Assembly: GCA_903834475.1 (NCBI GenBank) | Contig: CAILJH010000283.1 | Location: 1-49,683 of the forward strand | Length of the DNA: 49,683 bases | Origin: an uncultured Prolixibacteraceae bacterium | GTDB lineage: Bacteria > Bacteroidota > Bacteroidia > Bacteroidales > Prolixibacteraceae | Direction of reading: 5' to 3' | Part shown: positions 11,141-48,642 of the stretch, one piece after another | How the letters are laid out: each line of letters opens with the position of its first letter | Position numbering within the stretch: position 1 is the first letter of the stretch | Position numbers and translations under genes: made by a program | Notes under the pieces: generated by a model | Databases searched by the model: none | Told to the model about the DNA's origin: nothing | Seen by the model: the letters and a program-made list of their open reading frames with translations, nothing else

Positions 11141-11253
11141 ACACGAAGACACCAAGGCACAAAGGGAGTTGGTGAAATGAAACGAACATAATAAAATCAA
11201 TCTCACACAAGATGATGATTGTAAAAGTAGAAAATGTTGAATTCGCCTTTTTT

Positions 11254-11289
11254 AAGCCTCCCCTTTTGGGGGAGGTTTGGAGGGGGCTT
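11254..11289 (+). repeat. G/C hairpin repeat, family A, copy 1
   Basis: The element runs from AAGCCTCCCC to GGAGGGGGCTT, with an inner hairpin CCTCCCC-TTTT-GGGGGAGG and outer ends AAGC/GCTT that can also pair. It ends 12 bases before the ATG of the transporter gene. Copies 2 and 4 have the same orientation and the same 12-base spacing to their genes. It is a recurrent type of repeat in Bacteroidota intergenic DNA. Confidence 0.85.
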
Positions 11290-11301
11290 TAAATCCTAAA
11301 A

Positions 11302-12630
11302 ATGAAATCATACGTTATTCTCATTTCAGTTGTCGCTGCCTTGGGTGGTCTTTTATTCGGGTTCGATACTGCAGTTATTTCCGGTACTATCAATTTTATT
11401 CAGCCGTATTTCGGCCTTTCAGAAGCCGGATTGGGTTGGACTGTCAGCAGTTTGCTTTTTGGCTGCATTGCCGGGGTCTTCATTGCCGGAAAGGCTGGAG
11501 ATCGTTATGGCCGCAAAAAAGTGTTGATGTCAGCAGCATTGTTATTTTTCTTTTCTGCCATTGGAAGCGCATCTGCTCATTCGCTTTCCATTTTCCTGAT
11601 TGCACGAATCCTGGGTGGAATTGCAGTAGGAGTAGCTTCCATCCTTTCTCCGATGTATATTGCCGAACTTGCTCCGGCCAAATACCGCGGAACATTGGTT
11701 TCACTGAACCAATTGGCCATTGTAATCGGCATTTTGGTGGCTTTCTTCAGCAACTATCTTTTGGTCGGAACCGGCGAAAACAACTGGCGCTGGATGTTGC
11801 TTGTCATGGCGGCTCCCGCAGTGTTGCTTTTTTTTAGTCTGTTTTTGGTTCCTGAAAGTCCGCGCTGGTTGGTTGCTAAAAATCGAAATGAGGATGCCCT
11901 GAACGTTTTAGTCAAAACTTCAGGAAAAGAATTCGCAACTTCCGAATTGAAAGAAATTCAGGAAACCCTTAAAAACCTGGAAGAATCAACTTTTAGCGAA
12001 TTGTTGTCACCGAAGATCAAACCGCTTTTGTTTATCGGTATTATTCTCGCAGTTTTTCAGCAGATAACCGGAATCAACACGATTATGTATTATGCACCTA
12101 AAATATTTGCCAATGTGGGTCAATCGAACGATTCAGCTTTATTGCAAACCATTCTGATTGGCGGTAATAACTTGATATTTACTCTGGTTGCCATGGTTCT
12201 GATTGATCGATTCGGGCGGAAACTCTTAATTGTTGCCGGTTCAGCCGGAATGATGCTGATGCTTGCCGGACTTTCGTTTTTGTACTTTACCAATCAAACT
12301 TCAGGAGTCATGGTGTTGGTATTTATCATGGCATATTGTGCCTTTTTTGCCGCTTCATTAGGACCGACATTGTGGGTGGTTACTGCCGAATTATTTCCGA
12401 ATCGTCTGCGCAGCAAGGGAATGTCGGTTGCTATTGTGTCGCTTTGGATCGCATGCACCGTGGTATCTGTTGCTTTCCCGATTATGCTCGAAAAGCTGAG
12501 TGGAGGCATCACCTTCCTGATTTTTGCACTGATCTGTCTGTCCAATTTGCTGTACGTTCTGAAATACGTACCCGAAACCAAAGGCAAAACCCTGGAAGAA
12601 CTGGAAAAAGAATTTGACCGTAAACTTTAG
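11302..12630 (+). CDS. Sugar-porter family MFS transporter (XylE/GalP-like)
   Basis: This inner-membrane sugar:H+ symporter has 442 residues and about 12 predicted membrane segments. Sugar-porter signatures are all present: GGLLFGFDTAVISG in TM1, GDRYGRKK in loop 2-3, PESPRWL after TM6, QQITGINTIMYYAPKIF in TM7, DRFGRK in loop 8-9, and PETKGKTLEELEKEF at the C-terminus. QQITGIN is part of the hexose/xylose site in XylE. The position between a cupin phosphoglucose isomerase and a ROK kinase argues that it imports a free hexose, perhaps mannose or glucose; this is inference. A family A hairpin ends 12 bases before its ATG. Confidence 0.92.
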   Translation: MKSYVILISVVAALGGLLFGFDTAVISGTINFIQPYFGLSEAGLGWTVSSLLFGCIAGVFIAGKAGDRYGRKKVLMSAALLFFFSAIGSASAHSLSIFLIARILGGIAVGVASILSPMYIAELAPAKYRGTLVSLNQLAIVIGILVAFFSNYLLVGTGENNWRWMLLVMAAPAVLLFFSLFLVPESPRWLVAKNRNEDALNVLVKTSGKEFATSELKEIQETLKNLEESTFSELLSPKIKPLLFIGIILAVFQQITGINTIMYYAPKIFANVGQSNDSALLQTILIGGNNLIFTLVAMVLIDRFGRKLLIVAGSAGMMLMLAGLSFLYFTNQTSGVMVLVFIMAYCAFFAASLGPTLWVVTAELFPNRLRSKGMSVAIVSLWIACTVVSVAFPIMLEKLSGGITFLIFALICLSNLLYVLKYVPETKGKTLEELEKEFDRKL

Positions 12631-12640
12631 AATAATTTCC

Positions 12641-12672
12641 TTGTAGAGACGCACGGCGGTGCGTCTCTACAA
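12641..12672 (+). repeat. Perfect palindromic repeat, family B
   Basis: Arms TTGTAGAGACGCAC (12641-12654) and its exact complement (12659-12672) flank the loop GGCG. No T-run follows on the + strand, so it is not a classical terminator. It fills the gap between transporter and kinase, ending 14 bases before the ATG at 12687 and only 5 before an in-frame ATG at 12678. The GTAGAGACGCA palindrome is a known kind of dispersed bacterial repeat. Confidence 0.85.
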
Positions 12673-12686
12673 AATACATGATCCAT

Positions 12687-13634
12687 ATGAAATACACCAT
12701 TGCCATCGACCTCGGAGGAACCTTCATCAAAATCGGTTTGCTGAAAGAAGGTCATCTTGTTGATCGGAACGAAATTAGAGCTCAATCGTCTTCCGGATTG
12801 AAATCACAGTTGTCGGAATTGGAAACTGTTGTCAATCAATTATTGCTGACGAATGAAGTTTTGAAGGCAGATGTATTGGGAATCGGCTTTTCGTTTGCCG
12901 GATTGGTTGATTCTGTTCAGAACAGGATTTTATCGACCAATCAGAAATATGACGACGGACCGGAAACCGATCTGGTTGGATGGGCAAATGAAAAATGGAA
13001 CTGGCCGCTTTATGCTATGAACGATGCCCGAATGGCTTTGCTGGGTGAATGGCAGCATGGTGAATGGCAGAGGTTTTCTGATCTGGTTTTGGTTACACTC
13101 GGTACCGGAATAGGTTCTGCCGTTTTAGTCGGTGGAAAATTGCTGATTGGCAAACATTTTCAAGCCGGTAACCTGGGCGGTCATTTCGTTGTGAACCATA
13201 AAGGTTCAGTCTGTACCTGCGGAAATATTGGTTGTGTCGAAGCAGAAGCTTCCACCTGGAGATTGCCTTCGTTGTTGAAGGAGCATCTTGAATTTTCCGG
13301 AAGTTCGATGAAAAATGAAGATATCCTGGACTTTAAAGCACTTTTTAACCATGCCGGAAACGATGACCAGGTTGCCAAAGAGGTTTTGGAGCATTGTTTT
13401 TCTGTCTGGTCTGCCGGGATCATCAGTATGATTCATGCGTTCGATCCGGAAAAAATTATTTTGAGTGGCGGCATCATGAAAAGTTCATCGGTCATTCTGC
13501 CTGCCCTTCAGGAAAAAGTGAATGAACTGGCCTGGACTCCATGGGGAAAAGTAAAACTGGTCGAAGCAAAATTTCCGGATTCGGCAGCTTTGTATGGTGC
13601 AGATTATCTGGTTCGATCATCAGTAGCAATTTAA
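12687..13634 (+). CDS. ROK-family sugar kinase
   Basis: ROK kinases phosphorylate free hexoses with ATP in the cytoplasm. This 315-residue protein has the N-terminal phosphate-binding motif IDLGGTFIKIG (~7-17), the catalytic Asp in YAMNDARMA (D113), the LGTGIGSAVL segment (138-147), and the ROK zinc motif CTCGNIGCVE (C176, C178, C183). There is no N-terminal helix-turn-helix, so it is a kinase and not a ROK repressor. An in-frame ATG at 12678 would add three residues; I prefer 12687 because the upstream palindrome would then leave a 14-base leader. Between a sugar porter and mannose-6-phosphate isomerase it is a good candidate for a manno- or glucokinase, but the sugar is not proven. Confidence 0.9.
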   Translation: MKYTIAIDLGGTFIKIGLLKEGHLVDRNEIRAQSSSGLKSQLSELETVVNQLLLTNEVLKADVLGIGFSFAGLVDSVQNRILSTNQKYDDGPETDLVGWANEKWNWPLYAMNDARMALLGEWQHGEWQRFSDLVLVTLGTGIGSAVLVGGKLLIGKHFQAGNLGGHFVVNHKGSVCTCGNIGCVEAEASTWRLPSLLKEHLEFSGSSMKNEDILDFKALFNHAGNDDQVAKEVLEHCFSVWSAGIISMIHAFDPEKIILSGGIMKSSSVILPALQEKVNELAWTPWGKVKLVEAKFPDSAALYGADYLVRSSVAI

Positions 13635-13664
13635 TAAATCCAGAATAGAGATTTTGTCTTTTTT

Positions 13665-13699
13665 AAGTCCCCCTTTCGGGGGAGGTTTGGAGGGGGCCA
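13665..13699 (+). repeat. G/C hairpin repeat, family A, copy 2
   Basis: Same family and orientation as copy 1: a C-rich arm beginning AAGTCCCCC, a TTTC loop, GGGGGAGG, then TTTGGAGGGGGC. Twelve bases separate its aligned end from the ATG at 13712. It is preceded by a T-run, as are copies 1 and 4. Confidence 0.85.
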
Positions 13700-13711
13700 A
13701 AAAACACATAA

Positions 13712-15511
13712 ATGAAGAGATATTTAAACAAGCAATCGAAATTTACAAACCTTCCATTTGTTGAAGTTACAAATACTTCGTACAAAGTTGAGAATGGTTG
13801 GGAAGCCATATGTACTCGATTAAACAAAGAAATTTCAGCGATAAATGGTCCAAAAAAACTGGTGGTGATCGAAACTTATCAGGGCGTGATTCATGAAGAA
13901 TTGATTTCCAATCTTCAATCAAAACTCAACTATGATCGATTTATTCGGACCGAGGATTTCATGCTTCCGGAAGAAGAAATCAAAAAACTGGTTTTCCAGG
14001 ATGTGACCAACGACCGCATTTTTGGTTTCCTCACCCGACTGACGATGGATGCTTTTTTTGATCCTGAAAAAGTCAAAGCTATTCAATCCGAAATTGCCGA
14101 CACGAAGGAAGGAATCATCTTTATTTACGGCTGCGGTGCGAGTTTGCTGCGCCCCAACTCCCCCTCCCACGGAGGGGGTTGGGGGGAGGCTTTTGTTTAT
14201 GCCGACATGGCCCGCTGGGAAATTCAACTCCGTATGCGACAGCATTTGGTGGATAATCTGGGTGTTAAAAACCGCGATACCTCCGATTGGATGCTCCTTT
14301 ACAAACAGGGTTTCTTTGTTGATTGGCGCGTTTGCGATCGTCTGAAAAAGACGCTGTTCGATCAATGGGATTTCCTGCTCGACACCAACAAAATTGGTCA
14401 ACCTAAACTGGTTGAAGGTAAAGCAATTCTGGAAGGATTGGAATTAGCAACCAATCGTGTGTTTAGCGTTGTTCCGTTTTTTGATCCAGGACCGTGGGGC
14501 GGACAATGGATGAAGGAGGTTTGTAATTTAGATGAATCGGCACCCAATTATGCCTGGTGTTTCAATTGTGTTCCTGAAGAGAATAGCCTCTTGCTGAAGT
14601 TTGGTGACGATGTGATTGAAATTCCCTCTATCAATCTGGTATTCCGTCATCCCCGTGAACTGATGGGCGACCCGGTTCACGGTCGTTTTGGTGATGAATT
14701 TCCCATTCGTTTTGACTATCTGGATACCATGGAGGGCGGTCATCTGAGCCTTCAGGTTCATCCATTGACTGAATACATTCAGGAGAAATTTGGTTTGCAT
14801 TATACGCAGGACGAAAGTTACTACATGATGGAAACCGGAGACGATGCTATCGTTTATCTTGGTTTGCGCGAAGATGTAAATCCGGAAGAAATGTTGGCTG
14901 ATCTGGAAGAAGCACAAACTGGAGGAAAACCATTCGAAGCCGAAAAACATGTGCAGACCTGGCCGATGAAAAAGCACGACCATGTTTTGATTCCGGCAGG
15001 AACCATACATTGTTCCGGAAGAAGTAGCATGGTACTTGAAATAAGTGCCACTCCCTATATTTTCACATTCAAGTTATGGGATTGGGGACGATTGGGTTTG
15101 GATGGAAAACCTCGGCCAATCAACATTGAGCATGGCAAAAAGAACATTCAATGGGATCGGACAACAGAATGGACACGAAAAAATTTGGTCAATAACATTC
15201 AGATAGTTGCTGAAGGTGATGGCTGGGTGGAAGAATGCACCGGTTTGCACGAAAGCGAATTTATTGAAACCCGCCGCCACTGGTTTACCAAAAAGGTGGA
15301 ACACCATACCAATGGTGGGGTTCATGTGATTTGCCTGGTTGAAGGCGATGAGGTGATTGTTGAAAGTCCGGGCAATACATTTGAACCTTTCGTGGTGCAT
15401 TATGCCGAAGTTTTTATTGTTCCGGCCAAAGTTGGTGCCTATACTATTCGTCCGTCCGGTACCGGTGAAGGCCAAAAATGCGGCACGATGAAAGGATATG
15501 TAAGGTTTTAG
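13712..15511 (+). CDS. Type I mannose-6-phosphate isomerase with extra N-terminal domain
   Basis: The 599-residue product interconverts mannose-6-phosphate and fructose-6-phosphate. The C-terminal ~350 residues are the zinc-dependent type I isomerase: PWGGQWMKEV (261-270), the cupin motif LSLQVHP (345-351, with Q348 and H350), ESYYMME (368-374) and IPAGTIHCSG (427-436, H433). The first ~240 residues are a separate domain seen in Bacteroidota homologues, with LVVIETYQGV, GIIFIYGCGASLL and YADMARWEIQLRMR. It resembles a kinase or P-loop-like alpha/beta fold without an obvious Walker A; its role is unknown. Residues 147-160 are encoded by a G/C palindrome (14151-14190) that keeps the frame, so the gene appears to have absorbed a repeat. 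It lies 77 bases after the kinase gene. Confidence 0.88.
   Translation: MKRYLNKQSKFTNLPFVEVTNTSYKVENGWEAICTRLNKEISAINGPKKLVVIETYQGVIHEELISNLQSKLNYDRFIRTEDFMLPEEEIKKLVFQDVTNDRIFGFLTRLTMDAFFDPEKVKAIQSEIADTKEGIIFIYGCGASLLRPNSPSHGGGWGEAFVYADMARWEIQLRMRQHLVDNLGVKNRDTSDWMLLYKQGFFVDWRVCDRLKKTLFDQWDFLLDTNKIGQPKLVEGKAILEGLELATNRVFSVVPFFDPGPWGGQWMKEVCNLDESAPNYAWCFNCVPEENSLLLKFGDDVIEIPSINLVFRHPRELMGDPVHGRFGDEFPIRFDYLDTMEGGHLSLQVHPLTEYIQEKFGLHYTQDESYYMMETGDDAIVYLGLREDVNPEEMLADLEEAQTGGKPFEAEKHVQTWPMKKHDHVLIPAGTIHCSGRSSMVLEISATPYIFTFKLWDWGRLGLDGKPRPINIEHGKKNIQWDRTTEWTRKNLVNNIQIVAEGDGWVEECTGLHESEFIETRRHWFTKKVEHHTNGGVHVICLVEGDEVIVESPGNTFEPFVVHYAEVFIVPAKVGAYTIRPSGTGEGQKCGTMKGYVRF
14151..14190 (+). repeat. G/C hairpin repeat (family A variant) inside the isomerase gene
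   Basis: The element starts GCCCCAACTCCCCCTCC and ends GGAGGGGGTTGGGGGGAGGC, with an ACGGA-type centre. It is the variant whose reverse complement starts GCCTCCCCCC. It encodes residues 147-160 (RPNSPSHGGGWGEA), a Gly/Pro/Ser-rich stretch unlike the flanking conserved sequence. The reading frame is intact on both sides. Confidence 0.8.
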
Positions 15512-15522
15512 ATTGTTGAATT

Positions 15523-15555
15523 AACTCTGACAGGGTTTTAAACCCTGTCAGAGTT
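15523..15555 (+). repeat. Perfect palindromic repeat, family C
   Basis: Arm AACTCTGACAGGGTTT (15523-15538) and its exact complement (15540-15555) are separated by one base. It lies 11 bases after the isomerase stop. No U-tract follows (TATTAAATAAA), so it is not a typical terminator, although it could stall or protect a 3' end. The motif is a known type of dispersed palindrome. Confidence 0.85.
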
Positions 15556-15645
15556 ATTAAATAAATAAAGATGAAATGTTAATAGCAAAATATTGATTTA
15601 CAGGCTATTGATAAAAAAACGAGAATTGATGAACCTGCTTTTTTT

Positions 15646-15681
15646 AAGCCTCACCCTTCGGGGGAGGTTTGGAGGGGGCTT
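15646..15681 (+). repeat. G/C hairpin repeat, family A, copy 4
   Basis: It begins AAGCCTCACCC and ends GGAGGGGGCTT, in the same orientation as copies 1 and 2. The ATG at 15694 follows after exactly 12 bases. A run of seven Ts lies immediately upstream. Confidence 0.85.
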
Positions 15682-15693
15682 ATATTTTAAGAA

Positions 15694-16473
15694 ATGATAT
15701 TTTATCCCGGATTTGATATCCAACCCACCATTCAACCCATGGGTTTTACCTATGGTTCCAATGTTTTTGGACCTGAGGTAGAGAACCGCAAATTGGATTC
15801 GATTCGGAAAAGTTTGCTCGATCCTGAATGTTCAGGACCTGATCCGGTTTATTCCATTGCAATGGATGTGGGTAAAATGGAGCACCTCCACCTACTCAGG
15901 CAACATCACTTGTTATATGGTGCGGTGACATACGCTGCCGGTCGTTTGGGCGATGAACCGGTTCGAAGCCAGGGGCATATTCATAAGGTTTCACCACTTT
16001 CAGGCTGGTCAACTCCGGAAGTTTATGAAATCTGGTCGGGCAAAGCTATCATTTACATGCAGGAAACGGCTGAAGATCAGCCGGGGCGATGCTTTTCGGT
16101 GCTTGCCAATCCGGGTGATGTGGTGATTGTGCCGCCCTATTGGGCACACGCCACTATTAGCGCTGATGCCAATCAACCGCTCACTTTTGGTGCCTGGTGC
16201 GATCGTGAATATGGTTTCGAATACGACGGAGTCCGGGCTCACAAAGGCCTGGCGTGGTTTCCGGTAATTGCCCCTTCCGGAGAAATCGAATGGATGAAAA
16301 ACCCGAACTATCTGGAATGTGAATTAACAGTAAAAAGTCCTGAAATCTATTCACAGCTTGGAATAGAATCAGGAAAATCGATTTATACTCAATTTGAGGA
16401 AAATCCGGAGAAGTTTTTGTTTGTGCCCCAACCGCAATTGGTCAGGGAAGTTTGGGCGAAATTTTTCCCGTAG
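15694..16473 (+). CDS. Second cupin phosphoglucose-isomerase-like enzyme
   Basis: The 259-residue cytoplasmic cupin is of the glucose-6-phosphate isomerase family (PF06560 type). Metal-ligand candidates are H95 and H97 in SQGHIHK, E109 in TPEVYEIWSGKAIIYMQ, and H152 in PPYWAHATI; the H-x-H to Glu gap is longer than in the 10577-11140 protein. It is about 70 residues longer than that paralogue and has its own C-terminal extension ending VREVWAKFFP. Two divergent isomerases in one block suggest either two substrates or a second sugar phosphate, but this cannot be settled here. It is the last gene of the + strand block; a hairpin follows its stop, then convergent genes begin. Confidence 0.82.
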   Translation: MIFYPGFDIQPTIQPMGFTYGSNVFGPEVENRKLDSIRKSLLDPECSGPDPVYSIAMDVGKMEHLHLLRQHHLLYGAVTYAAGRLGDEPVRSQGHIHKVSPLSGWSTPEVYEIWSGKAIIYMQETAEDQPGRCFSVLANPGDVVIVPPYWAHATISADANQPLTFGAWCDREYGFEYDGVRAHKGLAWFPVIAPSGEIEWMKNPNYLECELTVKSPEIYSQLGIESGKSIYTQFEENPEKFLFVPQPQLVREVWAKFFP

Positions 16474-16475
16474 AA

Positions 16476-16507
16476 AATCCCTTCCTGCAATACTGCAAGA
16501 AGGGATT
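16476..16507. terminator. Hairpin between convergent genes
   Basis: AATCCCTTC-c-TGCA pairs with TGCA-a-GAAGGGATT around a short ATAC loop. It starts 2 bases after the isomerase stop and lies 22 bases from the end of the opposing gene. T-runs are short on both sides (ATTTTC on the minus strand), so it is a moderate terminator candidate that may serve either direction. Confidence 0.55.
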
Positions 16508-16529
16508 CGCAATGTCACGATCAATCAAA

Positions 16530-18536
16530 TTATTCAATGATTTCCAGGATGGAATGAATTTCAAGTTTCGGAATCAAAACTGTTGATTTACCATTAGCAT
16601 AGTTCATATTCAGTTCTTTACCTTCGGGTTGCAAAATAATCTTTGCTGGTTTTGAGGCTGTTTTCAAGCTAACCGTCAGGTCGGTCAGAGAGGGAATTTC
16701 ATCATATCCGATCGCCGATTGGTTGGTGCTTTCACCTGCAACATTAATCAGATTGACGTAGGTTTTACCTTTCAGCTTGTTTATGGCAACATGCACCATA
16801 TGCGAACCCGAAACTTCAACCATTTTTTCCGGAGACAGCCGTGAAATCGTTTCGGCAATAAAATCTCGAACTACAAATGTTTTGTACTGAGAATAATCAG
16901 ATCCTGCATTAAAATAGATGCCGGCAATTTTTCCTTTTCCGACCTGCCTCATTGAAGCTGCAATAGTTTTGCTCTTATACTGGAAATCGCCAACATCGTA
17001 GAAATTGGATAATATTTTGCTGTCAGCAGCCAATTCAACCGAAAGCAGAGGTGAGCGAATGCTTCCCAGTCGATTGTTTGCTGAGAGAAATGTGGTTGTT
17101 TCGTCGGTCATTTTGGACGACTGAATTCCCAATTCACCTGCAAAAATACCGGTTGCCTGTGCTCCAATAACCAACAGCTTGCCGCCATTTTGTACATAAG
17201 TTCGCAGTTCACCAAGCAAAACGGGTTCAATGCTATCACATTCAGGAATTACAATCATCGGATATTGACTTGTTTTTCCAAGCATATTGTGTTCCATCAA
17301 AACTTCAACCGGAAGCTGATTGTCGAGCAAAGCATAAAGTGTTCCCCGAAGCTTTTCGGGCGCTCCTGAAAATGCCGACGATGCACTGTGTTGATAAGCG
17401 CGGGCAGGGTAAAGCAAAGCAATTTGCGGTATAGCCTGTGCTTTGTGACAGAACGACTGTCGTTCACGGCAGAAAGTTCCCAGCTCCGATAATGTTGTTG
17501 CCAGCCAGGGTTTGAGTGACAAGTCGCGGTTTTGCTGGAAATAGAACTGAACCCCACCGCCCATGGCAATGATCTCTGCTGCTTCCTGCTCCAATTGAAC
17601 GACTGATTTGTTGCTCATCGGCATTTTATCGCCGTTCCATGAAAATCCCCAGGCCATCAAATCCCATGGTTTGCCTTGCGGAGCCATGCAGCGGGCCTCA
17701 AAAGCCGAACGGTAAACTCCGTTTTCCGGCGTCACATCGCCCGACAAAAAATCAACCTTGTTTTCAACTTTCTCTGGCATCAGCGACGAATACGACCAAT
17801 TGCTGGTGATCTGGAATTTCGGGTCGTAGGTATGAATGGCATCCACATATTTTTTCATGTATTCCCGAAAAAGGCCCCGGGTGTATTCCAGATATTTTGG
17901 ATAATTCGGATCGTCTTTTTTTCTGGGAACTTCTGAATTTCCGGTTTTGTTTTTCCAGTCGTTCAGGACTGCTTTGCTATAATCCGGTTCAACGGCCCAG
18001 CAATCGCCATCGATCCAGGCTCCGTCAACATGATATTCACCGCTTAATTCCTTGAGCTGCGGAATCAGAATCTGATCGAGATACGGACTGAAAAACGATA
18101 TTTTTTCTCTGCTGATTTCTCCCGTGGATTTTACCAGCGCCCAATCGGGATGTTCGGTCGCTGCTTTGGCATCCATTACTCCGGAATAGTGCATGAACAG
18201 TGCCACTTTATTCTTTTCGGTCACCTCTCTCCAGAGTTTTAGCGGATCTTTCTGAAAGCCTTTGACATGATAACCAGCTTTGGTTGGATAACTCGAAATT
18301 CCGGGGTGACCTTTGCAGTCGATCTGAATAAAATCAGGGCGGACTTTGGTCAGAAAAGTGTCCACCATTTCCGGAGTTAAAGTTCTGCCGGCATCCGTGA
18401 TATCTTCGCTGGCATGCAAATCGAAATGGACTCCGAAAAAACAATCGGCACGACGAAGTTTCTCTGGATTTTGTGCCTGAGTGGTGAGGTATATCCATGT
18501 GAAGAGGATCAGGATTACGAGTATCTGTTTATTCAT
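16530..18536 (-). CDS. Putative secreted TIM-barrel glycoside hydrolase (GHL6/alpha-L-fucosidase-like)
   Basis: The product is 668 residues with a signal peptide (MNKQILVILILFTWIYLTTQA). The N-terminal half is a (beta/alpha)8-type sequence with FFGVHFDLHA (34-43), DFIQIDCKGHPG, ALFMHYSGVMD and YHVDGAWIDGDCWA. These resemble alpha-L-fucosidase-like and GHL6 hypothetical glycosyl hydrolases, where an Asp in a W-x-D/D-G-D strand is the nucleophile. From ~380 to ~520 there is a glutamine-amidotransferase-like segment (QIALLYPARAYQH, YPMIVIPECDSI, YVQNGGKLLVIG) as in beta-galactosidase trimerisation domains. A beta-rich C-terminus follows. I cannot assign a CAZy family with confidence. It is the last gene of the minus-strand glycan region. 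Confidence 0.6.
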   Translation of the reverse strand: MNKQILVILILFTWIYLTTQAQNPEKLRRADCFFGVHFDLHASEDITDAGRTLTPEMVDTFLTKVRPDFIQIDCKGHPGISSYPTKAGYHVKGFQKDPLKLWREVTEKNKVALFMHYSGVMDAKAATEHPDWALVKSTGEISREKISFFSPYLDQILIPQLKELSGEYHVDGAWIDGDCWAVEPDYSKAVLNDWKNKTGNSEVPRKKDDPNYPKYLEYTRGLFREYMKKYVDAIHTYDPKFQITSNWSYSSLMPEKVENKVDFLSGDVTPENGVYRSAFEARCMAPQGKPWDLMAWGFSWNGDKMPMSNKSVVQLEQEAAEIIAMGGGVQFYFQQNRDLSLKPWLATTLSELGTFCRERQSFCHKAQAIPQIALLYPARAYQHSASSAFSGAPEKLRGTLYALLDNQLPVEVLMEHNMLGKTSQYPMIVIPECDSIEPVLLGELRTYVQNGGKLLVIGAQATGIFAGELGIQSSKMTDETTTFLSANNRLGSIRSPLLSVELAADSKILSNFYDVGDFQYKSKTIAASMRQVGKGKIAGIYFNAGSDYSQYKTFVVRDFIAETISRLSPEKMVEVSGSHMVHVAINKLKGKTYVNLINVAGESTNQSAIGYDEIPSLTDLTVSLKTASKPAKIILQPEGKELNMNYANGKSTVLIPKLEIHSILEIIE

Positions 18537-18597
18537 GGTTCAGGAATATTTTATGAAATGTGAGTTAAAAATAACAAATGTTTTCTTCATTTATCTC

Positions 18598-18633
18598 AAA
18601 AAAAATCCCTTTGCCGTTTCCGGAAAAGGGATT
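18598..18633 (-). terminator. Rho-independent terminator after the six-hairpin glycosidase
   Basis: On the minus strand AATCCCTTT pairs with AAAGGGATT around a CC/GG-closed loop and is followed by eight Ts. It lies 50 bases after the stop of the 18683-21370 gene, so the 16530-18536 gene likely depends on readthrough or its own promoter. Confidence 0.75.
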
Positions 18634-18682
18634 AACTAAAACCTGATTAATAATTAAACTATTTATGAAAAAGAGATGCCCG

Positions 18683-21370: not shown

Positions 21371-21408
21371 TGGTTTGATGTTTTTGGGATTCAATTCAAG
21401 CTAAAAAT

Positions 21409-23949: not shown

Positions 23950-24089
23950 TTGATGTATTGTTCCGTAACTATTTGCAGGTTAGGGTTCTCTATTAAATTT
24001 CCTGTGCGGAGTTACATTTTAAATTACTAATTATCTCTTTGACGAAGCACTTAAATCGGTCGGAAAATTCTCTACTTTGCGCCTTTTTT

Positions 24090-25775: not shown

Positions 25776-25837
25776 ATTTCAATTTCCCTCATATTTGCTT
25801 TGAACCTTTAATTGTGGGTGATAATTCTACAAAATTT

Positions 25838-25870
25838 ATTACTCCGACGACTACAAGTCATCGGAGTAAT
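25838..25870 (-). terminator. Hairpin downstream of the SusF-like gene
   Basis: On the minus strand ATTACTCCGAtGACT pairs with AGTCgTCGGAGTAAT around TGT, with one wobble, followed by AAATTTTG. The stem is strong and the T-run weak. It lies 14 bases after the stop and may act as a terminator or a 3'-end stabiliser that sets this gene's mRNA apart from the enzymes downstream. Confidence 0.6.
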
Positions 25871-25883
25871 AAAATGGACAGGT

Positions 25884-27161: not shown

Positions 27162-27349
27162 AGCTTTTGTTTTTATGGATTAATAATTAGTTGAATTTCT
27201 ATTTCAGCAGGATAAAAGTATATCCTTTCAGGCCGGAAGATTTTTGTTATTTGCATAAAGTAGTTTTTATAGTAATTTAAGAAGCTTAATGGTTTGTTAT
27301 CCTTTATGTTACGATCTTTGTGAGCGAAAAAAAAGTAGTGATTTTCAGA

Positions 27350-27390
27350 CAAAAAAATGGACTTCAGGGATAAATTAACCCTGAAAGTCT
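27350..27390 (-). terminator. Terminator of the DUF6377 regulator gene
   Basis: On the minus strand GACTTTCAGGG pairs with CCCTGAAGTC (one bulge) around TTAATTTAT, then CATTTTTTTG follows. It lies 20 bases after the stop, separating the regulator from the SusF-like gene. Confidence 0.75.
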
Positions 27391-27409
27391 GACAAAAGTA
27401 TGATGATCG

Positions 27410-29068
27410 TTATTTCTTAAATGTGCCTATTTGCATCACTTTAGATTCAAATTCATCGCGCGGACCTTTAGCTTTGTTTCTGAATTTTGTACGGAAGTTG
27501 TAAATTGTAGTGACAGAATACCGAAGGAAGAATGAGATTTTCTCGCTGTCTTTAATTCCAAGGCGAATCAGAGCAAACACCCGCAAACCGGAATTCAGGA
27601 TTTCTCCTGATTTGAGTTTAATTTCGTCATCATCAATCAGCAAATCACTGATTTCTTCAATAAAATCCGGAAAAAGTTGGATGAAAGTCCGGTCGAAATT
27701 GGCATAAAACTCTTTGAGTTCTTCATCAATAAACTTGGTTGACACAATTTCATTGAGCAAATCATCCACCTTTCCTTTCAAAGACAATTTATGTAAATGG
27801 CGTCGGTATTCGTCCAGCTTGTTGATGTAAACCGAACACTGATCCATAAACCGGCCAATATAGACTTCTTTTATCAGGTTGGCTTCCAGTAAAGTATGAT
27901 TGGTTTCTTCCAGCTGAATATTCGTTGCCGACAGCTCCCTGTTCAGGTTGTTTAGGAGTTGGTTGGCGTCGTTCAGGTTTTTTCGTGCCACGGCCAGCTT
28001 TTTCATTTGCCGGTAAACCAATATCACTGCGACCATCAGTAACAATGACAAAATACTGATGCTGATCAAGGTGATCATCATCAACCTTTGTCGTGCCTTG
28101 GATTGCTGCTGATAAGCTTTGTCAATGACCGGCATCATTTTCGAAATTTCGTATGTACGTAGCCTGGCATTGCAAAATAATGCGTCATCAAGCGATCGTT
28201 TCATATATTGATATGCCCGGTCAAGGTCACCATCTTCGTACAACAGAAAGGCCAGATTGCGCAGCGAAATGTATTCCTTGGTTGCCGATTGTAAATCGTT
28301 TATAGCAGAAATTACTAACCAGTGTTTCTCAAGTCCCCGGTCATTTTTACCCTCAAAAGCCAATGCAATACTATAGGCAATAATAGCTTTGTCGTGAATA
28401 TTTTCCTGAATGGTTGGATAATATTCCAGCAAAAGTTTCAGCGCTTCATCGTATTGTTTGCCAACAATAAGCTGATCAGACTTTACCATAACATGAGGCT
28501 CTGAATTCTTAGCATTCACTATTAACAAAGAATCGCGGAATGCAGCTGTAACTTCCTCGTAATGGATTTTATCCTGACTTGAAGCGGCATAATCGGCCAT
28601 AAAGCCGTAAACTGTCCGGTAAATATGAAAGTAATAAGCTTTTAAGTCTGGCGTTTCGTTGATGTTTACTTTATTGAGTATGTCCATCGACTCTTTGTAC
28701 ATACCAGCAATTCCCATGATTGATGCAAGATTCAACCTTGAATCTGTGAGACTTCTTTTATCATTTAATTTCTCGGCGATTTGCAGTTTTTTTCTGGCAT
28801 AAATCAGCGCCGAATCTGATTTATAAGCACTGTATTCATCGTACAATTTACCGCAAACATCATATCGTTGATTGTCGGTCGAAGCTTGTTTCAGCAAAGC
28901 TTTAAATTGATCCAGCTTTTCTTCTTTTTGGTTCGAATAGATCTGGAAATTTTCTACCGTTTGATCCAGCACCATTAACAACGAATCAGTACTGTTTTGT
29001 GCCAGAAGTGAAACCGGAAAAGCTAAGAACAGAACTATGGAGAAGAATCTATTCATAAATCCTAACAT
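27410..29068 (-). CDS. DUF6377-family membrane-spanning regulator
   Basis: The 552-residue product has a signal peptide (~1-23), a helical TPR-like periplasmic region (~25-325), one membrane segment (~330-352, [20 protein letters not shown]), a coiled coil (~355-400), and a cytoplasmic C-terminal region. This last ends with [38 protein letters not shown], a helix-turn-helix-like segment typical of DUF6377 proteins. The layout suits a one-component sensor that couples a periplasmic ligand to transcription; SusR-type regulators of Bacteroides glycan loci share this general plan. That it controls the flanking glycan genes is inferred from position only. An in-frame ATG at 29056 would also serve as start. 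Its gene starts 65 bases after the DUF4432 gene on the same strand. Confidence 0.75.
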
Positions 29069-29133
29069 TTTGACCGGTTCCTGACCTATAGTCCGGTTTG
29101 AGAATGATTTTCTTGACGTCCTTTCAGCTTTAT

Positions 29134-30204
29134 TTATTGAAGTTGGTTTATTTTTTGAATCAATTGATCAATTTCAATTTGTCCGTTTACCAATTCAATA
29201 GTCAGGTCGAAGTTACGGATTTCTCCTGGTTCAAGGTATTCCAATATTCCGTTCTCCGTTGCATCTTTCCGTCCACCCACATAGCAATTGCAGGGTTCCA
29301 TTCCCATCACGTAATCGCCTTCACCCATTTGCTTCCATTGGGTAAAGTTGAAAAGCTGATTTTTATTGAAGTGAATTGCAGCGCCAATTTCAAGCTTTTG
29401 ATTGATCAGGGCAACGCAGGTTTCCCCATTCTGATCTGATTTCAGGTTGTGATAAAAAACCTGCTCGGCATAATCCGGAGTTGGCGGCTGGCATTGGTTG
29501 TATTCCTTTTCACCTGAAATTGCTTCCTGATCACGGGGAGTCAGTTCCCCGGTTGGAGTCACCAGAATGGCATTTTCATCCAACAACGGATATCCCATGT
29601 TGAAGTGGAACAACAGCATGAGCGCTTCCTTTTTGAATCCCTGATTCTCTACCTTATTTTGCAGGATAATCTTGTTCTCTCCGTATTTGCAGATGATTTT
29701 CCGTTCAAGCACGATGTTCTCACCGAAAAGCCTGGCTTCACGCATCTTTCCGCTGATTGTCAAAACAGGAACATCATCAATCCATTCGGTAGTTCCTGAA
29801 ACTTCTTCGCCGGGAGTATTCGAAATCCTTCCGTGGAGCGGAAATGATTCGCCATCCACTTCACAGGGAGAACCTACATTGCGCAAACCGCAGGTCGTCA
29901 GGAAACCTGCAAAATAACTTCGCAAAAAACCGATTCCGTTTTCATCATAGTATTCAGGAGCAACAATCCCGTTTTTTGTGATGTAACTGCAGTTGATGCC
30001 TTTAATCGACAGTCCGGAAATATCGAGACAACGGTCGGCAAGGATTGTAAACTCAAGCCCCGAGCCGGTTTTAACATCGAAAGATTTTACGCCTTTCGCT
30101 TTTCCGCCGGAAAGGGTATATTCTTTAATTCCAAAAAGCTGACTAACGTTTCCAACGTATTTCAGCATTTGCCGTTTATTCAAATTCGTTTTTGTCATTG
30201 TCAT
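29134..30204 (-). CDS. DUF4432 aldose-1-epimerase-like protein
   Basis: The 356-residue cytoplasmic protein belongs to the galactose-mutarotase-like superfamily (DUF4432). It has [14 protein letters not shown] (56-69), [17 protein letters not shown] (95-111), [13 protein letters not shown] (121-133, with H124) and [12 protein letters not shown] near the C-terminus. Mutarotase-fold proteins bind free or phosphorylated sugars and many epimerise the anomeric carbon; the DUF4432 substrate is not known to me. There is no signal peptide. An in-frame ATG two codons later (30198) could also be the start. It is 23 bases from the URO-D-family gene, so the two are almost surely co-transcribed and may act on the same compound. 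Confidence 0.85.
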
Positions 30205-30227
30205 ATTATTTTAAACATTTGATAATC

Positions 30228-31469
30228 CTATTTATTAAATTCGTTTACAGCTTCAAACATGGCCACAATATTTTCCGGCGGAACGTCAGGCATAATGTTG
30301 TGGACCGTCGTAAAAACAAATCCACCGCCAACCGAAAATGCTTCCAGGTTCTTCTTTACATGATCTTTTACTTCTTGAGGAGTTGCCCTGTTTAGGATGC
30401 TTTTGGTATCGCAACCACCACCCCAAAAGGTAATATCCTTGCCAAATTCCTTTTTCAGCCGCCATGGTTCCATGTTAATGGCATTGATCTGAACCGGATT
30501 CAGAATTTCAAAGCCTGCATCAATCAATTCCGGAATCAGTTCATAGATGCCACCACAACTGTGCAGCATGGTATGTGCTGAGGAATTGGCTTTGACATAG
30601 TCGCACATCATTTTGTGTCGTGGTTTGAAAAACTCGTTATACATCTCCGTTGATATAAATGGTCCACTATTCATACCTAAATCATCGCCAAATTTGATGA
30701 TATCCACCACATCGCCTACTGCTTCGATTGTTTTTTGCAACCCGCTCATGTGACTCTCCATCAACGCGTCCAGAAACCGGTGGACCTCTTCGGGTTCGGC
30801 CAGCAGATCCATCAGGAAATTGTCCATTCTTCGGATGAAAGTGCCCCATTCGAACAGGTTGCAGCCAATTCCCAACAGCAATGCCTTGTCGGTCTTTGAT
30901 TTTAAATCGATGGTTTTCTCACGCAGCAGTTTCCAGAAGTCCTTTTCTTCTGACCAGTCCCAGGGAGTAAAACCAACACCGCCCCAGATCACCCGTTTCA
31001 TATCTTTTGACAGATTTTTATAATCTGACGGATAACCATTAATATAAGGGAAAATGGTCTGATCGAAAAAAGTTGCTCCAAGTGGCATCCGGCCAATGAT
31101 TTCGCCTGTAGATCCGTAGATAACATTTGAATCATCTGGCAGTCGCTGAGTATTCAACCAATGCGGATAGAGTGCCCGATGTCCGGAAATGATCTCGATT
31201 TCTTTCCAGTAATTTTCGTCCGTATTGAAATGCCGGCCAATGTCAATCACATCTACCCCAAAATGATTCAATAACTCCATTTCGGGTTGAGCAACTTCCT
31301 GTATCACATCATAAACCTGAGTTTTCAGATGCGACTTTCCCAAATATTTGATCAGGTTTTGGTAGGCAACAACCGAAATTCCTGAACTTGGTGTAGCACC
31401 CAGATCAATTGGAACCCGGTCCGGCTTCTGATGATTAATTGCTGCAAGAATTCGTTCCCGAGGTGTCAT
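30228..31469 (-). CDS. Uroporphyrinogen decarboxylase (URO-D) family protein, non-HemE
   Basis: The 413-residue protein has the URO-D barrel layout: MTPRERILAAINHQKPDRVPID at the N-terminus, MLHSCGGIYELIPELIDAGFEILNPVQ and TFWGGGCDTKSILNRATPQEV late in the chain, and VHNIMPDVPPENI near the end. It is longer than HemE (~340-350) and matches the MtaA/CmuA-like and uncharacterised members that often stand in catabolic loci. MtaA-type proteins transfer methyl groups between corrinoids and thiols, but no corrinoid protein or partner is in the window, so a methyltransfer role is only a possibility. It is co-directional with DUF4432 and lies 244 bases from the GH92 gene across a repeat-rich gap. Confidence 0.82.
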   Translation of the reverse strand: MTPRERILAAINHQKPDRVPIDLGATPSSGISVVAYQNLIKYLGKSHLKTQVYDVIQEVAQPEMELLNHFGVDVIDIGRHFNTDENYWKEIEIISGHRALYPHWLNTQRLPDDSNVIYGSTGEIIGRMPLGATFFDQTIFPYINGYPSDYKNLSKDMKRVIWGGVGFTPWDWSEEKDFWKLLREKTIDLKSKTDKALLLGIGCNLFEWGTFIRRMDNFLMDLLAEPEEVHRFLDALMESHMSGLQKTIEAVGDVVDIIKFGDDLGMNSGPFISTEMYNEFFKPRHKMMCDYVKANSSAHTMLHSCGGIYELIPELIDAGFEILNPVQINAINMEPWRLKKEFGKDITFWGGGCDTKSILNRATPQEVKDHVKKNLEAFSVGGGFVFTTVHNIMPDVPPENIVAMFEAVNEFNK

Positions 31470-31549
31470 GAATTTAACTGTTTAAAGAAGAATCCGATTT
31501 CTATTCCAAATATAATTCGCGATTGTCAGCTAAACAAAAAGGTTTATCA

Positions 31550-31696
31550 GCTACGCGGAAATGTGGATTGTGTTTATTCCGATCTATAATACTTTATCCC
31601 TGCCTGCGGCTGGCAGGCGCTACGCGGAAAGTTCTCCGTAGGAGATTTAGTATTGTAGAGAAATCAAGTCCTCATCGTAAAATACCTCGTAGAGGT
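31550..31696. repeat. Nested-hairpin intergenic element with direct repeats
   Basis: CTATAATACT (31584-31593) and AGTATTGTAG (31649-31658) form an outer inverted repeat with one G.T pair. Inside are GCCTGC-ggctg-GCAGGC (31602-31618) and TCTCC-gta-GGAGA (31633-31645); outside is ACCTC-gta-GAGGT (31684-31696). GCTACGCGGAAA occurs twice (31550-31561, 31619-31630). The layout matches the element at 6111-6212, although stem sequences differ. It fills the gap between the GH92 and URO-D genes; no gene seen. Confidence 0.6.
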
Positions 31697-31713
31697 TAAA
31701 CTATACTATGTTT

Positions 31714-33948
31714 TTAATTAATTTTTGTACCCCAGTTTTTATTTGGCCGGTCGCCCATCAACAACTCAAGTTTGCCTCCTTTTACAATGTCGGTATGACT
31801 AATAAAAGGTCTGTTCAAAGCTTCTCCATTTAATTCGGCCGATTGGATGTATTTATTCTTCTTCGAGCAATCTTTAGCAATGACCGAAAAGGTTTTGCCA
31901 TCGGGAAGCTGAATTTTCACCGAGTTGAAAAACGGACTTCCGATAGCATATTCGCCACTTCCTGGAGTTACCGGAAAAAATCCCATGGCCGAAAAGACAT
32001 ACCAGGAGCAAAGTCCGCCGCCATCCTCATCGCCCGGAATTCCCAATGGGCGGTCATCGAACCACATATCCATAATTTCGCGAATCCGGCGCTGAGTTTT
32101 CCAGGGTTGTCCGGCGTAATTGTAAAGGTATGGGATATGAAGCGAGGGTTCATTACCAGCCACAAACATGCCGTTCAATCCTGATGAATCAGGAGATCTA
32201 CCCATAAACTGCCATTTCGAAATGTGGGTTGGTTCGTTAAAAAGCGCATCCAGCCGGTTGACGAAAGCATCGTTTCCTCCCAGCAATTTGATCAAATCAG
32301 GAATATCCTGCTGAACGCTGAAATTCCAGGTCCATGCATTGTTTTCGGTGAAATAGGAGCGGCTACCAACTCCTCCTGAGAGCTGCGGATCGAAAGGTGT
32401 AATCCATTTGCCATTCGCCATTTTGGGTGCAAAAAATCCGGTTGCCGGATTAAAAACATTCCGGTAATTCTTTGACCGTTTCAAAAAAAAGTCGCAATCT
32501 TCATTTTTACCCAAAGCTTTAGCCAACTGAGCCAGACACCAGTCATCGTAGCTGTGTTCAAGTGTTAAGGAAACAGCCTGTCGTTTTTCAAAGCCATCAA
32601 CCATTTTAACAGTTTCTGCACTGTCTTCCGGAAGGGCCGGATACCAGCCATTTTTCAGGTAGAAACTATCAAGAGAGCACATGGGACCGGTTCGCCAAGG
32701 AAGCATGGTTGCATGAGTTGCGTTCCATTTCAATCCTTCATAGGCTTTTTCAACCTCAAAGTTGGTTGCTCCTTTTTGATAAGTATCCCAAACCAAAGCG
32801 GCAGAATGGAATCCGATCATTGCAGGGAAATCGCCGTAAAACTGAGGGAATCCGGGCATCCAGCCACTTTGCTCATACATTTTGGTATATGACTCCACCA
32901 TATCTGCCTGTTGTGAGGGATTAAGAATCAGCATTAATGGGTGAAGGCTACGATAAGTATCCCAAAGCCAATCGTCCACAAAGAATGGGCGCCCGCCGTC
33001 CTCATGAACCTTGCAATCGTATCCACTGTAATACCTTCCATCTTCCGAAATATTGACCATTCGCTCTTCGCAGCGGTAAAGTGAAGTGTAAAAAATCCGT
33101 TTCTGACGTTCCGTTCCACCATCAATTTGAATTTTACCCAGTTCGTTTGCCCAAATCTGGTGACCTTCTTCCTGGATGGATTCAAAGCTTTTACCATTCG
33201 TCTCTTTCTGAAGATTTTTGGCAGCCTGATTTTCATCGATGTAGGAGATTCCTATTCGAACTTCCAGAGGAGCTTTCAGTCCTTCAAATTGGGCAAGCAA
33301 ACCAATTTCATTGGTTTGAGTTTCTGCATCAGAAGCTGTTTTCGCAGGTTCGAAATTAACAGAATAGGAGAATGGCTGGCTGAATTCGGCATGGAAATAC
33401 TGACGTGTTTTCTCAAATTCCTCCCATCCCTCAACTATATTTTTGTCAATTCCCTGAAAAAAAGCTTTCTGGCTGGAACGAAAAATCACCTTGGCTAAAG
33501 GATTTGTGCCGTAGTTAAACCGGTAAATTACAGCACGTTCAGTGGTCGTCCAGTCTGCCTCAATCCCGGAATCTTCAAGCAAAACCTTGTGGTACCAAGG
33601 GTGAACTTCTTCCTGATCGTGGTCGTAGGTTGATGCGTATTCATCCCGATTCAGGTTTAGTTTTCCGGAAGTTGGCATCAACTCAGTCACATGGCCCATG
33701 CGGTAGGCGGGCATATTCAGGGCAAAACCGTAGATTTTATCGCTCAGGTAGCGGTCGTTCAGTCCTGGTTTGGTAATCGGAAACACGCGGACCATGCTGT
33801 GCGGACGATGTACCGTCGGGTTTTTGGTTGTCAGCAAAGTGGCAACGCTGCCGATGTTTGGATCGATATATTGGGTTACGTCTTTTTGATGGCACGAGGC
33901 GAATAAAATAATGAAAAGAATACCAAGTAATTTATAATGTTGATTCAT
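31714..33948 (-). CDS. GH92-family alpha-mannosidase lipoprotein
   Basis: The 744-residue product begins with a lipoprotein signal peptide whose lipobox ends LFASC (Cys19), so it is probably anchored to the outer membrane or in the periplasm. The GH92 signature is clear: GIPGDEDGGGLCSWYVFSAM (636-655), where the Asp residues D640 and D642 correspond to the catalytic-base region of characterised Bacteroides GH92 enzymes. Also typical are FFVDDWLWDTYRSLHPL and the N-terminal jelly-roll opening TQYIDPNIGS. GH92 enzymes are calcium-dependent inverting exo-alpha-mannosidases acting on N-glycans and mannans. The gene is preceded by a family A hairpin repeat (11-base spacing) and by the GH38 gene on the same strand. 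Confidence 0.93.
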   Translation of the reverse strand: MNQHYKLLGILFIILFASCHQKDVTQYIDPNIGSVATLLTTKNPTVHRPHSMVRVFPITKPGLNDRYLSDKIYGFALNMPAYRMGHVTELMPTSGKLNLNRDEYASTYDHDQEEVHPWYHKVLLEDSGIEADWTTTERAVIYRFNYGTNPLAKVIFRSSQKAFFQGIDKNIVEGWEEFEKTRQYFHAEFSQPFSYSVNFEPAKTASDAETQTNEIGLLAQFEGLKAPLEVRIGISYIDENQAAKNLQKETNGKSFESIQEEGHQIWANELGKIQIDGGTERQKRIFYTSLYRCEERMVNISEDGRYYSGYDCKVHEDGGRPFFVDDWLWDTYRSLHPLMLILNPSQQADMVESYTKMYEQSGWMPGFPQFYGDFPAMIGFHSAALVWDTYQKGATNFEVEKAYEGLKWNATHATMLPWRTGPMCSLDSFYLKNGWYPALPEDSAETVKMVDGFEKRQAVSLTLEHSYDDWCLAQLAKALGKNEDCDFFLKRSKNYRNVFNPATGFFAPKMANGKWITPFDPQLSGGVGSRSYFTENNAWTWNFSVQQDIPDLIKLLGGNDAFVNRLDALFNEPTHISKWQFMGRSPDSSGLNGMFVAGNEPSLHIPYLYNYAGQPWKTQRRIREIMDMWFDDRPLGIPGDEDGGGLCSWYVFSAMGFFPVTPGSGEYAIGSPFFNSVKIQLPDGKTFSVIAKDCSKKNKYIQSAELNGEALNRPFISHTDIVKGGKLELLMGDRPNKNWGTKIN

Positions 33949-33959
33949 AGTTTATAATT

Positions 33960-33994
33960 AAGCCCCCTCCAACCTCCCCCGAAGGGTGAGGCTT
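33960..33994 (-). repeat. G/C hairpin repeat, family A, copy 5
   Basis: On the minus strand it runs from AAGCCTCACCC to TTGGAGGGGGCTT, the same orientation relative to its gene as copies 1, 2 and 4. Eleven bases separate it from the ATG of the GH92 gene at 33948. Confidence 0.85.
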
Positions 33995-34077
33995 TTAAAA
34001 GCAATGTCATCATTTTTGGTTTTATAATCATTCCCGTGTATGTCAAAATTTGGTCATGGAAGATTCTTGATGTATCT

Positions 34078-48505: not shown

Positions 48506-48588
48506 TTTTTCAGGAATTAAGAATAAAGGTAAATATAATTTGAATATCCGTTTTCTTTCCTAATTGCGATTCTTTTCCGTCAAAAGTT

Positions 48589-48642
48589 GTCATTTGATTG
48601 TCATTCATTGTTTTATACACGACTTAATGACAATCAAATGAC
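48589..48642. repeat. 17-bp perfect inverted repeat between FRG and oxidoreductase genes
   Basis: GTCATTTGATTGTCATT (48589-48605) is exactly complemented by 48626-48642, around a 20-base spacer. Its right part ends 18 bases from the end of the oxidoreductase gene. Short direct copies of the same word (CTTAATGACA) flank the arm. There is no T-run, so it may be an operator-like or repeat element and not a terminator. Confidence 0.7.

Follow-up and report, generated by a model that had tools for sequence, protein, structure and literature searches.

Hairpins of one repeat family, here called family A, stand at a fixed distance before start codons in an uncultured Prolixibacteraceae bacterium and across its genus, as ascertained from four copies in a 49,683-nucleotide (nt) stretch of its DNA (contig CAILJH010000283.1 of assembly GCA_903834475.1, hereafter the window) and from 112 distinct copies in 18 genomes. 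The slot that they occupy is common to palindromes of unrelated sequence, and in about half of the start-flush copies the hairpin forms the 3′ portion of a longer unit, the start-codon leader element X. Both features were missed by a preliminary description of the window, which had drawn attention to the four hairpins. That the placement of the hairpins is partly built into X is well supported, and we give an even chance to the proposal that they belong to small dispersed, start-codon-anchored elements that carry their own initiation region, with the spacing built in.

Placement of the family A hairpins in the genome and the genus

The genome of the window is a fragmented assembly of 3.6 Mb in 287 contigs (66% complete), in which a 20-base core of the hairpin has 28 matches at up to three mismatches. 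At up to two mismatches, 20 of the 21 matches are followed, in the correct orientation, by an ATG located 14–24 nt after the terminal GGGGGC (18 of them at 14–17 nt), the one remaining match being located at a gene's 3′ end. A 22-base core is present in 18 of 61 genomes, i.e. 17 of the 23 genomes of the genus (the window's own included in each count) and one other. The related records were found via the hairpin itself, and most of them bear the name Prolixibacteraceae or that of unplaced Bacteroidota in their titles. The collection of 112 copies was built without 4 of the 111 matches to the 22-base core.

The first ATG opening a reading frame of at least 80 amino acids lies 13–24 nt past the core in 83 of the 112 copies, with a mode of 16. 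Among the 90 copies lying no more than 250 nt before such an ATG, 76 have a core that ends 13–18 nt before it, as compared with 5.6 expected from uniform placement of each copy within its own interval and with a maximum of 17 in 20,000 simulations. For comparison, 1.6% of random intergenic points fall 11–16 nt before a start, as measured from the end of CTT. The genes downstream of these 76 copies belong to 51 gene families (orthologous copies being counted apart), so that orthology inflates the count only modestly. Chance and annotation artefacts are ruled out by this within-interval control and by an independent gene caller, blind to the upstream sequence, which chose the same four start codons in the window. 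The fixed spacing and orientation reported for four hairpins thus hold genome-wide and genus-wide.

In total, 82 of the 112 copies are start-flush (69 according to gene calls and 13 according to a simple reading-frame rule), 20 are located at 3′ ends of opposite-strand genes, 9 lie elsewhere and one is inside a gene. It is mainly the right end of the hairpin that is flush (102/112, including five that overlap the 3′ end of a gene, versus 3/111 for the left end). Similarly, a profile search of about 850 kb not selected for hairpins returned 30 matches to family A and to families related to it. Their right ends were once more close to a start or a stop, and the distance of their left ends varied. 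Seventy-eight start-flush copies follow a co-directional gene, 19 of them in total spacers of 63–105 nt and 59 in spacers of 118–862 nt, and in 17 of the 78 an inverted related hairpin stands directly after the stop codon of the preceding gene. By contrast with the genus, none of 11 outside records carrying the same hairpin (Prevotella or Prevotellaceae, Bacteroides, Ferruginibacter, Chitinophagaceae and two without a family name) has it at 13–18 nt, and only two have it before any start.

In three genomes (loci L008, L039 and L114), apparently the same gene, which from its first residues we take to be rlmB-like, has family A hairpins on both sides in inverted orientation; the L008 frame extends into the 3′ copy.

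A slot shared by unrelated palindromes

Two further palindromes, with no evident sequence in common with family A, were analysed in the same way. The CACATAG palindrome (40 occurrences in 30 sampled loci) falls in the slot of 13–18 nt before the ATG in 14 of 16 cases, versus 3.0 expected and up to 10 in simulations. The GTAGAGACG palindrome (35 occurrences in 19 sampled loci) does so in 8 of 15 cases versus 2.9 expected, a weak and only suggestive result, as the simulations reached 10. The within-interval control left out copies located more than 250 nt from an ATG opening a reading frame, which amounted to 22 of the 112 family A copies, 24 of the 40 CACATAG occurrences, 20 of the 35 GTAGAGACG occurrences and 9 of the 11 copies outside the genus. 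The slot before start codons is therefore not specific to family A.

Orthologous junctions illustrate this sharing. The junction before the gene that starts at position 13712 of the window is empty (10–11 nt) in two genomes, and harbors family A in two, CACATAG in three and a further hairpin in one, while the upstream gene differs in two more. In the leuB spacer, the last 14–20 nt before the ATG are often alike, and different palindromes occupy the sequence upstream of them.

As side observations on CACATAG, its arms are 9-nt repeats CACATAGNN with variable loops (L323–L352, sampled across the genus), and its right arm was counted 82 and 86 times on both strands of genomes G008 and G006, counts in which one palindrome may be represented twice.

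The start-codon leader element X

X was found upstream of the hairpin, with a score above the 99th percentile of shuffled sequence, in 44 of the 82 start-flush copies and in 3 of the 30 other copies. It starts 86–98 nt before the hairpin core in most cases and 108–133 nt before it where an extra palindrome is present, one weak match (L004) being misplaced. The presence of X in about half of the copies makes the spacing a part of the element for those copies.

X also occurs in an intact form of about 90 nt, which extends from start codon to start codon: ATGAAACGA...GAGTTCCATNTG...AAATTATAAACAN followed by ATGAAA. Forty-six intact elements measure 86–99 nt as extracted, mostly 88–92 nt, from ATGAAACGA to the next ATGA, and display in order a conserved middle (CACACAGGAGNATGATTAT), GAGTTCCATNTG, AAAAAACAAATTATAAACAN and the start codon. 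The element ends in an A-rich initiation region that the next start codon directly follows (CANATGAAA). In the family A form, GAGTTCCATNTG and the bases around it give way to the hairpin, and the terminal AAATTATAAACA tends to be retained: matched at 10 or more of its 12 positions, it precedes the ATG in 47% of the family A copies with X, 21% of those without X and 1.1% of 468 genes.

The gene starts exactly at the last ATG of X in 25 of 33 matches examined, 24 of these 25 starts being ATGAAA. In a second set of X elements (n = 29), all 29 starts are ATGAAA, versus 21% of 542 genes; this set required ATGA, and 37% of ATGA starts are ATGAAA. The X core was located in 55 of 140 genomes of the taxonomic family, with 6 control matches, and these genomes provided the intact elements described above. 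The X model has at least 639 matches in the genus, distributed in all 23 genomes (between 4 and 88 per genome, from no more than 150 scored candidates in each). Copies of X are found head to tail, ATG to ATG, at L403, L405, L414 and L416. In the 850-kb sample, the X model yielded six matches up to an E-value of 0.1, the weakest of which (0.099) is the window's own match at 34068–33994.

The preliminary description considered a shared function, possibly in sugar metabolism, for the genes downstream of the hairpins. This suggestion finds no support, since 51 gene families stand behind the hairpin and the 29 genes tested behind intact X represent 29 families with no visible pathway theme; among ten proteins scanned behind X are members of the ispF, MurG-like, adenylosuccinate synthetase and thioredoxin families. 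No Rfam family apart from a tRNA exceeded its gathering score, either in the window or in 15 loci that carry X, alone or together with the hairpin. The possibility that X is a coding mini-gene was dropped because the stop/start overlaps, as read by eye, follow trivially from any ATGA start.

Variants of X with other apical parts, e.g. ATGAAACGAACATGTTTGC...GCAAACATGGAGTTCCATCTG, occur at L264, L403, L408 and L418, which suggests that there may be several leader subfamilies.

Pairing of X with the start codon

In the intact elements, RNAalifold predicts one helix, in which an internal CATNTG pairs with CANATG, i.e. the last three bases before the gene and its ATG. The variable bases of the two motifs pair in 39 of 46 elements (C-G in 19, A-T in 13, G-C in 7 and others in 7), versus a mean of 18.9 and a maximum of 30 in 10,000 shuffles, statistics that ignore relatedness, as do those that follow. 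In an alignment of 45 sequences, 94.8% of the helix cells pair versus 87.4% after shuffling, and double-sided changes occur in 20 of 45 cells versus 9.1 after shuffling and 0–1 in slid controls. The C-G, A-T and G-C pair types all occur within single genomes (G018 and G062). The core is surrounded by matching flanks (GCC/GGC in 17 elements, CC/GG in 10 and GC/GC in 10), which suggests a second short stem. The first AUGAAAC of X could in addition pair with GUUCCAU, as noticed by eye. From the covariation, we infer that the internal CAUNUG may sequester the start codon in RNA.

Folding of the hairpin and the initiation region

In predicted folds, the T-run of family A is paired to the G-rich right arm via G-U pairs in 78 of the 82 start-flush copies. 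Folding energies are −25.0 kcal/mol for the gene-reading strand and −13.8 for the opposite strand, with the same direction of bias in 82 of 82 copies. The 20 copies at 3′ ends have the same bias (20/20; −21.6 versus −12.2 kcal/mol), although their stable strand runs antisense to the gene that they adjoin. It is worth noting that G-T pairs also form in single-stranded DNA, so that the strand bias is no proof of a role in RNA.

The predicted openness of the region from −13 to +3 is 0.691 with the hairpin, 0.633 when the hairpin is shuffled and 0.665 when it is deleted (n = 76), the native hairpin being favored in 54 of 76 cases over the shuffled one and in 43 of 76 over deletion. These predictions suggest a small effect only of the hairpin in insulating the initiation region, and no general peak of hairpins or structure appeared across 299 upstream regions.

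The sequence between hairpin and ATG is rich in adenines, with A frequencies at −13, −12 and −11 of 0.68, 0.92 and 0.76 in the 76 copies versus 0.51, 0.54 and 0.58 in 431 genes. According to the available part of PMC6847099, the adenines A-12 and A-13 are positive determinants of initiation in Flavobacterium johnsoniae, and excerpts of PMC6847099 and PMC9976891 state that Bacteroidia ribosomes fail to recognize the Shine-Dalgarno sequence. Two roles for the hairpin were rejected. The GGAGG that it contains is unlikely to serve as a Shine-Dalgarno sequence, in view of this property of the ribosomes and of its distance of about 20 nt from the ATG (by eye), and a role as an intrinsic terminator does not fit the T-run, which is located 5′ of the hairpin on the strand of the gene.

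Presence and absence of the units

By eye, orthologous sites differ between species in the presence of a unit at the junctions of the L011 gene, leuB, the sugar porter gene and the 13712 gene. The L011 gene carries a unit in the window's genome and in G021 but in none of the 19 others of the 21 genomes read, and its initiation region is nearly doubled around the unit (AAAATTAGAAACAATGAAACGA / AAAATCAGAAACAATGAAACGA). In one of three tests, the left and right initiation regions are more alike within than between loci (4.07 versus 3.37; permutation p = 0.0055), as tested on 30 unique loci obtained from 39 by leaving out orthologous duplicates. Y1 transposases occur in 23 of 23 genomes of the genus. 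Among 30 sampled Y1 transposase loci, we found no case of a transposase flanked by family A or X, except for one weak X match (E-value 0.11).

At L105 (G021:C64), about 490 nt before a Y1 transposase gene, stands a close paralogue of the L001 unit, consisting of X and a hairpin with a loop palindrome.

Interpretation and alternative explanations

From these data, we propose, with about as much reason to expect this to be right as wrong, that the hairpins belong to small dispersed elements anchored to start codons. An intact X unit begins at one start codon (ATGAAACGA) and ends just before the next. Its family A form has a G-C-rich hairpin instead of the 3′ half and retains the terminal initiation region, so that the distance from hairpin to ATG would be built into the unit instead of being tuned gene by gene. 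A unit landing at a start codon would supply a new initiation region, and the gene would stay expressed. Copies without X and unrelated palindromes would share this boundary because neither the A box (−13 to −11) nor anything 3′ of it may be disrupted or drawn into base pairs. The simplest account would be that the units move and carry the start codon along, their mobility being deduced from presence and absence between species. A more specific version, which we regard as a tentative possibility, is that of a mobile element that targets the start codon: it would insert at ATGAAA, recognize its right end via the CATNTG/CANATG pairing, and bring its own initiation region and start codon.

Several observations weigh against this proposal of start-codon-anchored elements. 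X is missing from 38 of the 82 start-flush copies, and at two orthologous junctions (the 13712 gene in G009 and leuB in G008) the stretch between hairpin and ATG resembles the native sequence and not the end of X. The 20 copies at 3′ ends of opposite-strand genes, 15 of which have the stop codon at −1 to 7 nt from their right end while in the other five the gene runs 31–55 nt into the element, are unexplained by the start-codon rule. The evidence for a duplication of the initiation region around the unit is mixed and weak: a stricter test on seven loci gave p = 0.10, and a looser one on 76 copies found no mean effect (percentile 0.53, with 8 copies above 0.95). No family A copy lies within about 1.5 kb of a Y1 transposase (PF01797) in the 30 sampled loci, and the sole X match there is the weak one already mentioned. 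Concerning the start-codon helix, variation is limited to one of its six pairs, its consensus energy is as small as −0.1 kcal/mol, its numbers of covarying pairs (1 versus 1.1) and of further pair types (4 versus 5.0) are not above those of shuffles, and the apical stem of X is unsupported (own versus swapped arms, p = 0.07).

The preliminary description offered two readings of its own, each of which catches a part of what we found. One was that the hairpins form part of the 5′ leader, and the strand-specific predicted hairpin adjoining the initiation region agrees with it. Selection would then keep palindromes that abut the landing region of the ribosome, where they may hold the initiation region single-stranded or protect the mRNA, and copies elsewhere would be lost. 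The greater stability of family A on the gene-reading RNA strand in all 82 start-flush copies, the occupation of the same slot by unrelated palindromes, the slightly more open −13 to +3 region in 54 of 76 comparisons with shuffled hairpins and the importance of A-12 and A-13 for initiation in Flavobacterium (PMC6847099, in the part available) all speak for this explanation. It is nevertheless unlikely, given that the gain in openness over hairpin deletion is small (43/76), the 3′-end copies have the same strand bias with the stable strand being antisense, the 299 upstream regions have no general hairpin peak and the downstream genes are unrelated, while X would fix the spacing in about half of the copies without any selection on the hairpin.

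The other reading was that insertion prefers this site, and the sites do look like insertions, as judged from the presence and absence of units between species and from the unrelated palindromes at the same junction. A related explanation is that ordinary repeats, similar to repetitive extragenic palindromic (REP) sequences or to miniature inverted-repeat transposable elements (MITEs), survive only where they spare the coding sequence and the initiation region, so that the flush place alone is left in short junctions. It would account for the 13712 junction, which spans only 10–11 nt when empty, for the 19 of 78 start-flush copies in spacers of 63–105 nt and for the presence of Y1-type transposases in all 23 genomes, and right ends abut stop codons too, like the REPs of Proteobacteria (PMC3733652, available in part). 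This explanation is already strained by the within-interval control (76 versus 5.6 expected), and it becomes quite improbable when one considers that 59 of the 78 copies lie in spacers of 118–862 nt where other places are free, that it is mainly the right end that is flush and that no copy stands beside the 30 sampled transposase loci. We consider it just as improbable that X is a conserved cis-regulatory RNA, a start-codon switch spread by ordinary duplication, in which CAUNUG pairs with the downstream CANAUG or with the upstream AUG. The covariation with the start codon and the matching GCC/GGC, CC/GG and GC/GC pairs around the core are consistent with such a switch, but the 29 families of the 29 downstream genes, with no pathway theme seen, and the up to 88 copies per genome are not, and the same pairing could serve for end recognition at the DNA level.

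The common view of dispersed repeats is that they are tolerated at any site where they do no damage. In these genomes, a single rule of placement, precise almost to the base, governs families of unrelated sequence, and a leader with hundreds of copies has its limits on start codons at both ends. Should the units be mobile, they would exemplify a harmless way of entering an important gene, namely by rebuilding its start. An element that targets start codons would be the start-codon counterpart of introns and inteins, with the interrupted gene being rebuilt at once, and it would account for the accumulation of several palindrome families 15 nt upstream of start codons. Should the units act in RNA, they would amount to a large, hitherto unrecognized class of leaders for translation, in a phylum where ribosomes work without Shine-Dalgarno pairing. 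In both cases, the choice of start codons, the 5′ ends and gene calling are affected in these genomes.

The hairpins of the window and their neighborhood

The coordinates, orientation and spacing given in the preliminary description for the four copies are right. Copy 1 (11254–11289, + strand) ends 12 nt before the ATG at 11302 of the sugar porter gene, and is predicted to fold into a single long hairpin of −32.3 kcal/mol, with the T-run paired to the G-rich arm via G-U pairs. Directly upstream of it lies a degenerate X leader (11177–11255, + strand), which starts with ATGAAACGAACATAA and reaches 36.0 bits with model R1 (E-value 4.8e-6 in the window and 8.2e-5 in the 850-kb sample). The translation initiation region at 11290–11301, which together with the porter ATG spans 11290–11304 (+ strand), is A-rich from −13 to −11, as is the rule in these genomes. 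Copy 2 (13665–13699, + strand) ends 12 nt before the ATG at 13712, and neither leader scoring nor model R1 found X upstream of it. Copy 3 (15646–15681, + strand) ends 12 nt before the ATG at 15694 of the GPI-type cupin isomerase gene, and is preceded by a weak X-like leader (15571–15645, + strand) with a local score of 48, which model R1 did not report. Copy 4 (33960–33994, − strand), which was detected by the profile, has a one-base deletion and ends at 33960, 11 nt before the ATG at 33948 (− strand) of the GH92 gene. The degenerate X leader directly upstream of it (33994–34068, − strand) contains TTTTGACATAC....GGAATGATTATAAAAC and scores 22.4 bits with model R1 (E-value 0.0058 in the window, but only 0.099 in the 850-kb sample).

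The labels sugar porter, cupin isomerase and GH92 were confirmed, whereas the label mannose-6-phosphate isomerase was not supported: the gene at 13712–15511, which encodes 599 amino acids and is located between the ROK kinase and the GPI-type cupin isomerase genes, has no Pfam or NCBIfam match at an E-value of 0.001 or below.

Other inverted repeats also occur in the window. The unrelated palindrome GTAGAGACGCACGGCGGTGCGTCTCTAC (12643–12670, strand unassigned) fills the junction between the porter and ROK-kinase genes, 12 nt past the stop and 16 nt before the ATG at 12687. Another unrelated palindrome, ACTCTGACAGGGTTTTAAACCCTGTCAGAGT (15524–15554), is stop-flush, 12 nt past the stop of the gene that ends at 15511. 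Further inverted repeats are located at 48584–48647 (22-nt arms, 95% complementary, 20 nt apart) and at 6111–6172 (30-nt arms, 73% complementary, 2 nt apart).

Comparison with known systems

In the open-licence literature searched, we found neither a report of palindromes that stand at a constant distance upstream of start codons nor one of the X leader. REP elements and their Y1 transposases (REP-associated tyrosine transposases, RAYTs) are similar to family A in that they are short dispersed extragenic palindromes, present in many copies per genome near coding sequences. According to the available part of PMC3733652, the REPs of two Proteobacteria lie near 3′ ends, at a varying distance from downstream open reading frames, and have a GTAG/CGTC tag at their foot, whereas family A has a fixed distance to the start and a foot that reads TTTTTTAAGCC / GGGGGCTT, without the tag. 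Furthermore, REP palindromes flank the Y1 gene, in contrast to family A in the sampled Y1 loci (0/30 within about 1.5 kb). The TAACTGA repeats of Beggiatoaceae are also dispersed, mostly in one orientation just upstream of starts, without a pattern of gene function, and have been proposed to act in translation (excerpts of PMC4679880). They differ in being direct heptamers that overlap the expected ribosome-binding site and that by their sequence are not hairpins, and these excerpts mention neither a leader element nor a covariation with the start codon.

The MITEs of Bacteroidota, e.g. those of Porphyromonas gingivalis (PMC4596501, available in part), are likewise small non-autonomous repeats. 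The units described here differ in their limits, from start codon to start codon, and neither terminal inverted repeats nor a clear target duplication are evident in them so far, the left and right initiation regions being alike beyond chance in one test and not in two others. In the single-strand elements of the IS200/IS605 type, an internal guide sequence pairs with the cleavage site. The CATNTG/CANATG covariation would be compatible with such a guide rule. In translational riboswitches and other leaders that sequester the start codon, an anti-start sequence covaries with the start codon region. X differs from such leaders by its lack of a gene theme and of an Rfam match, its high copy number, its tandem copies and its presence and absence between species, and it resembles them in that its own anti-start sequence covaries with the region of the start codon.

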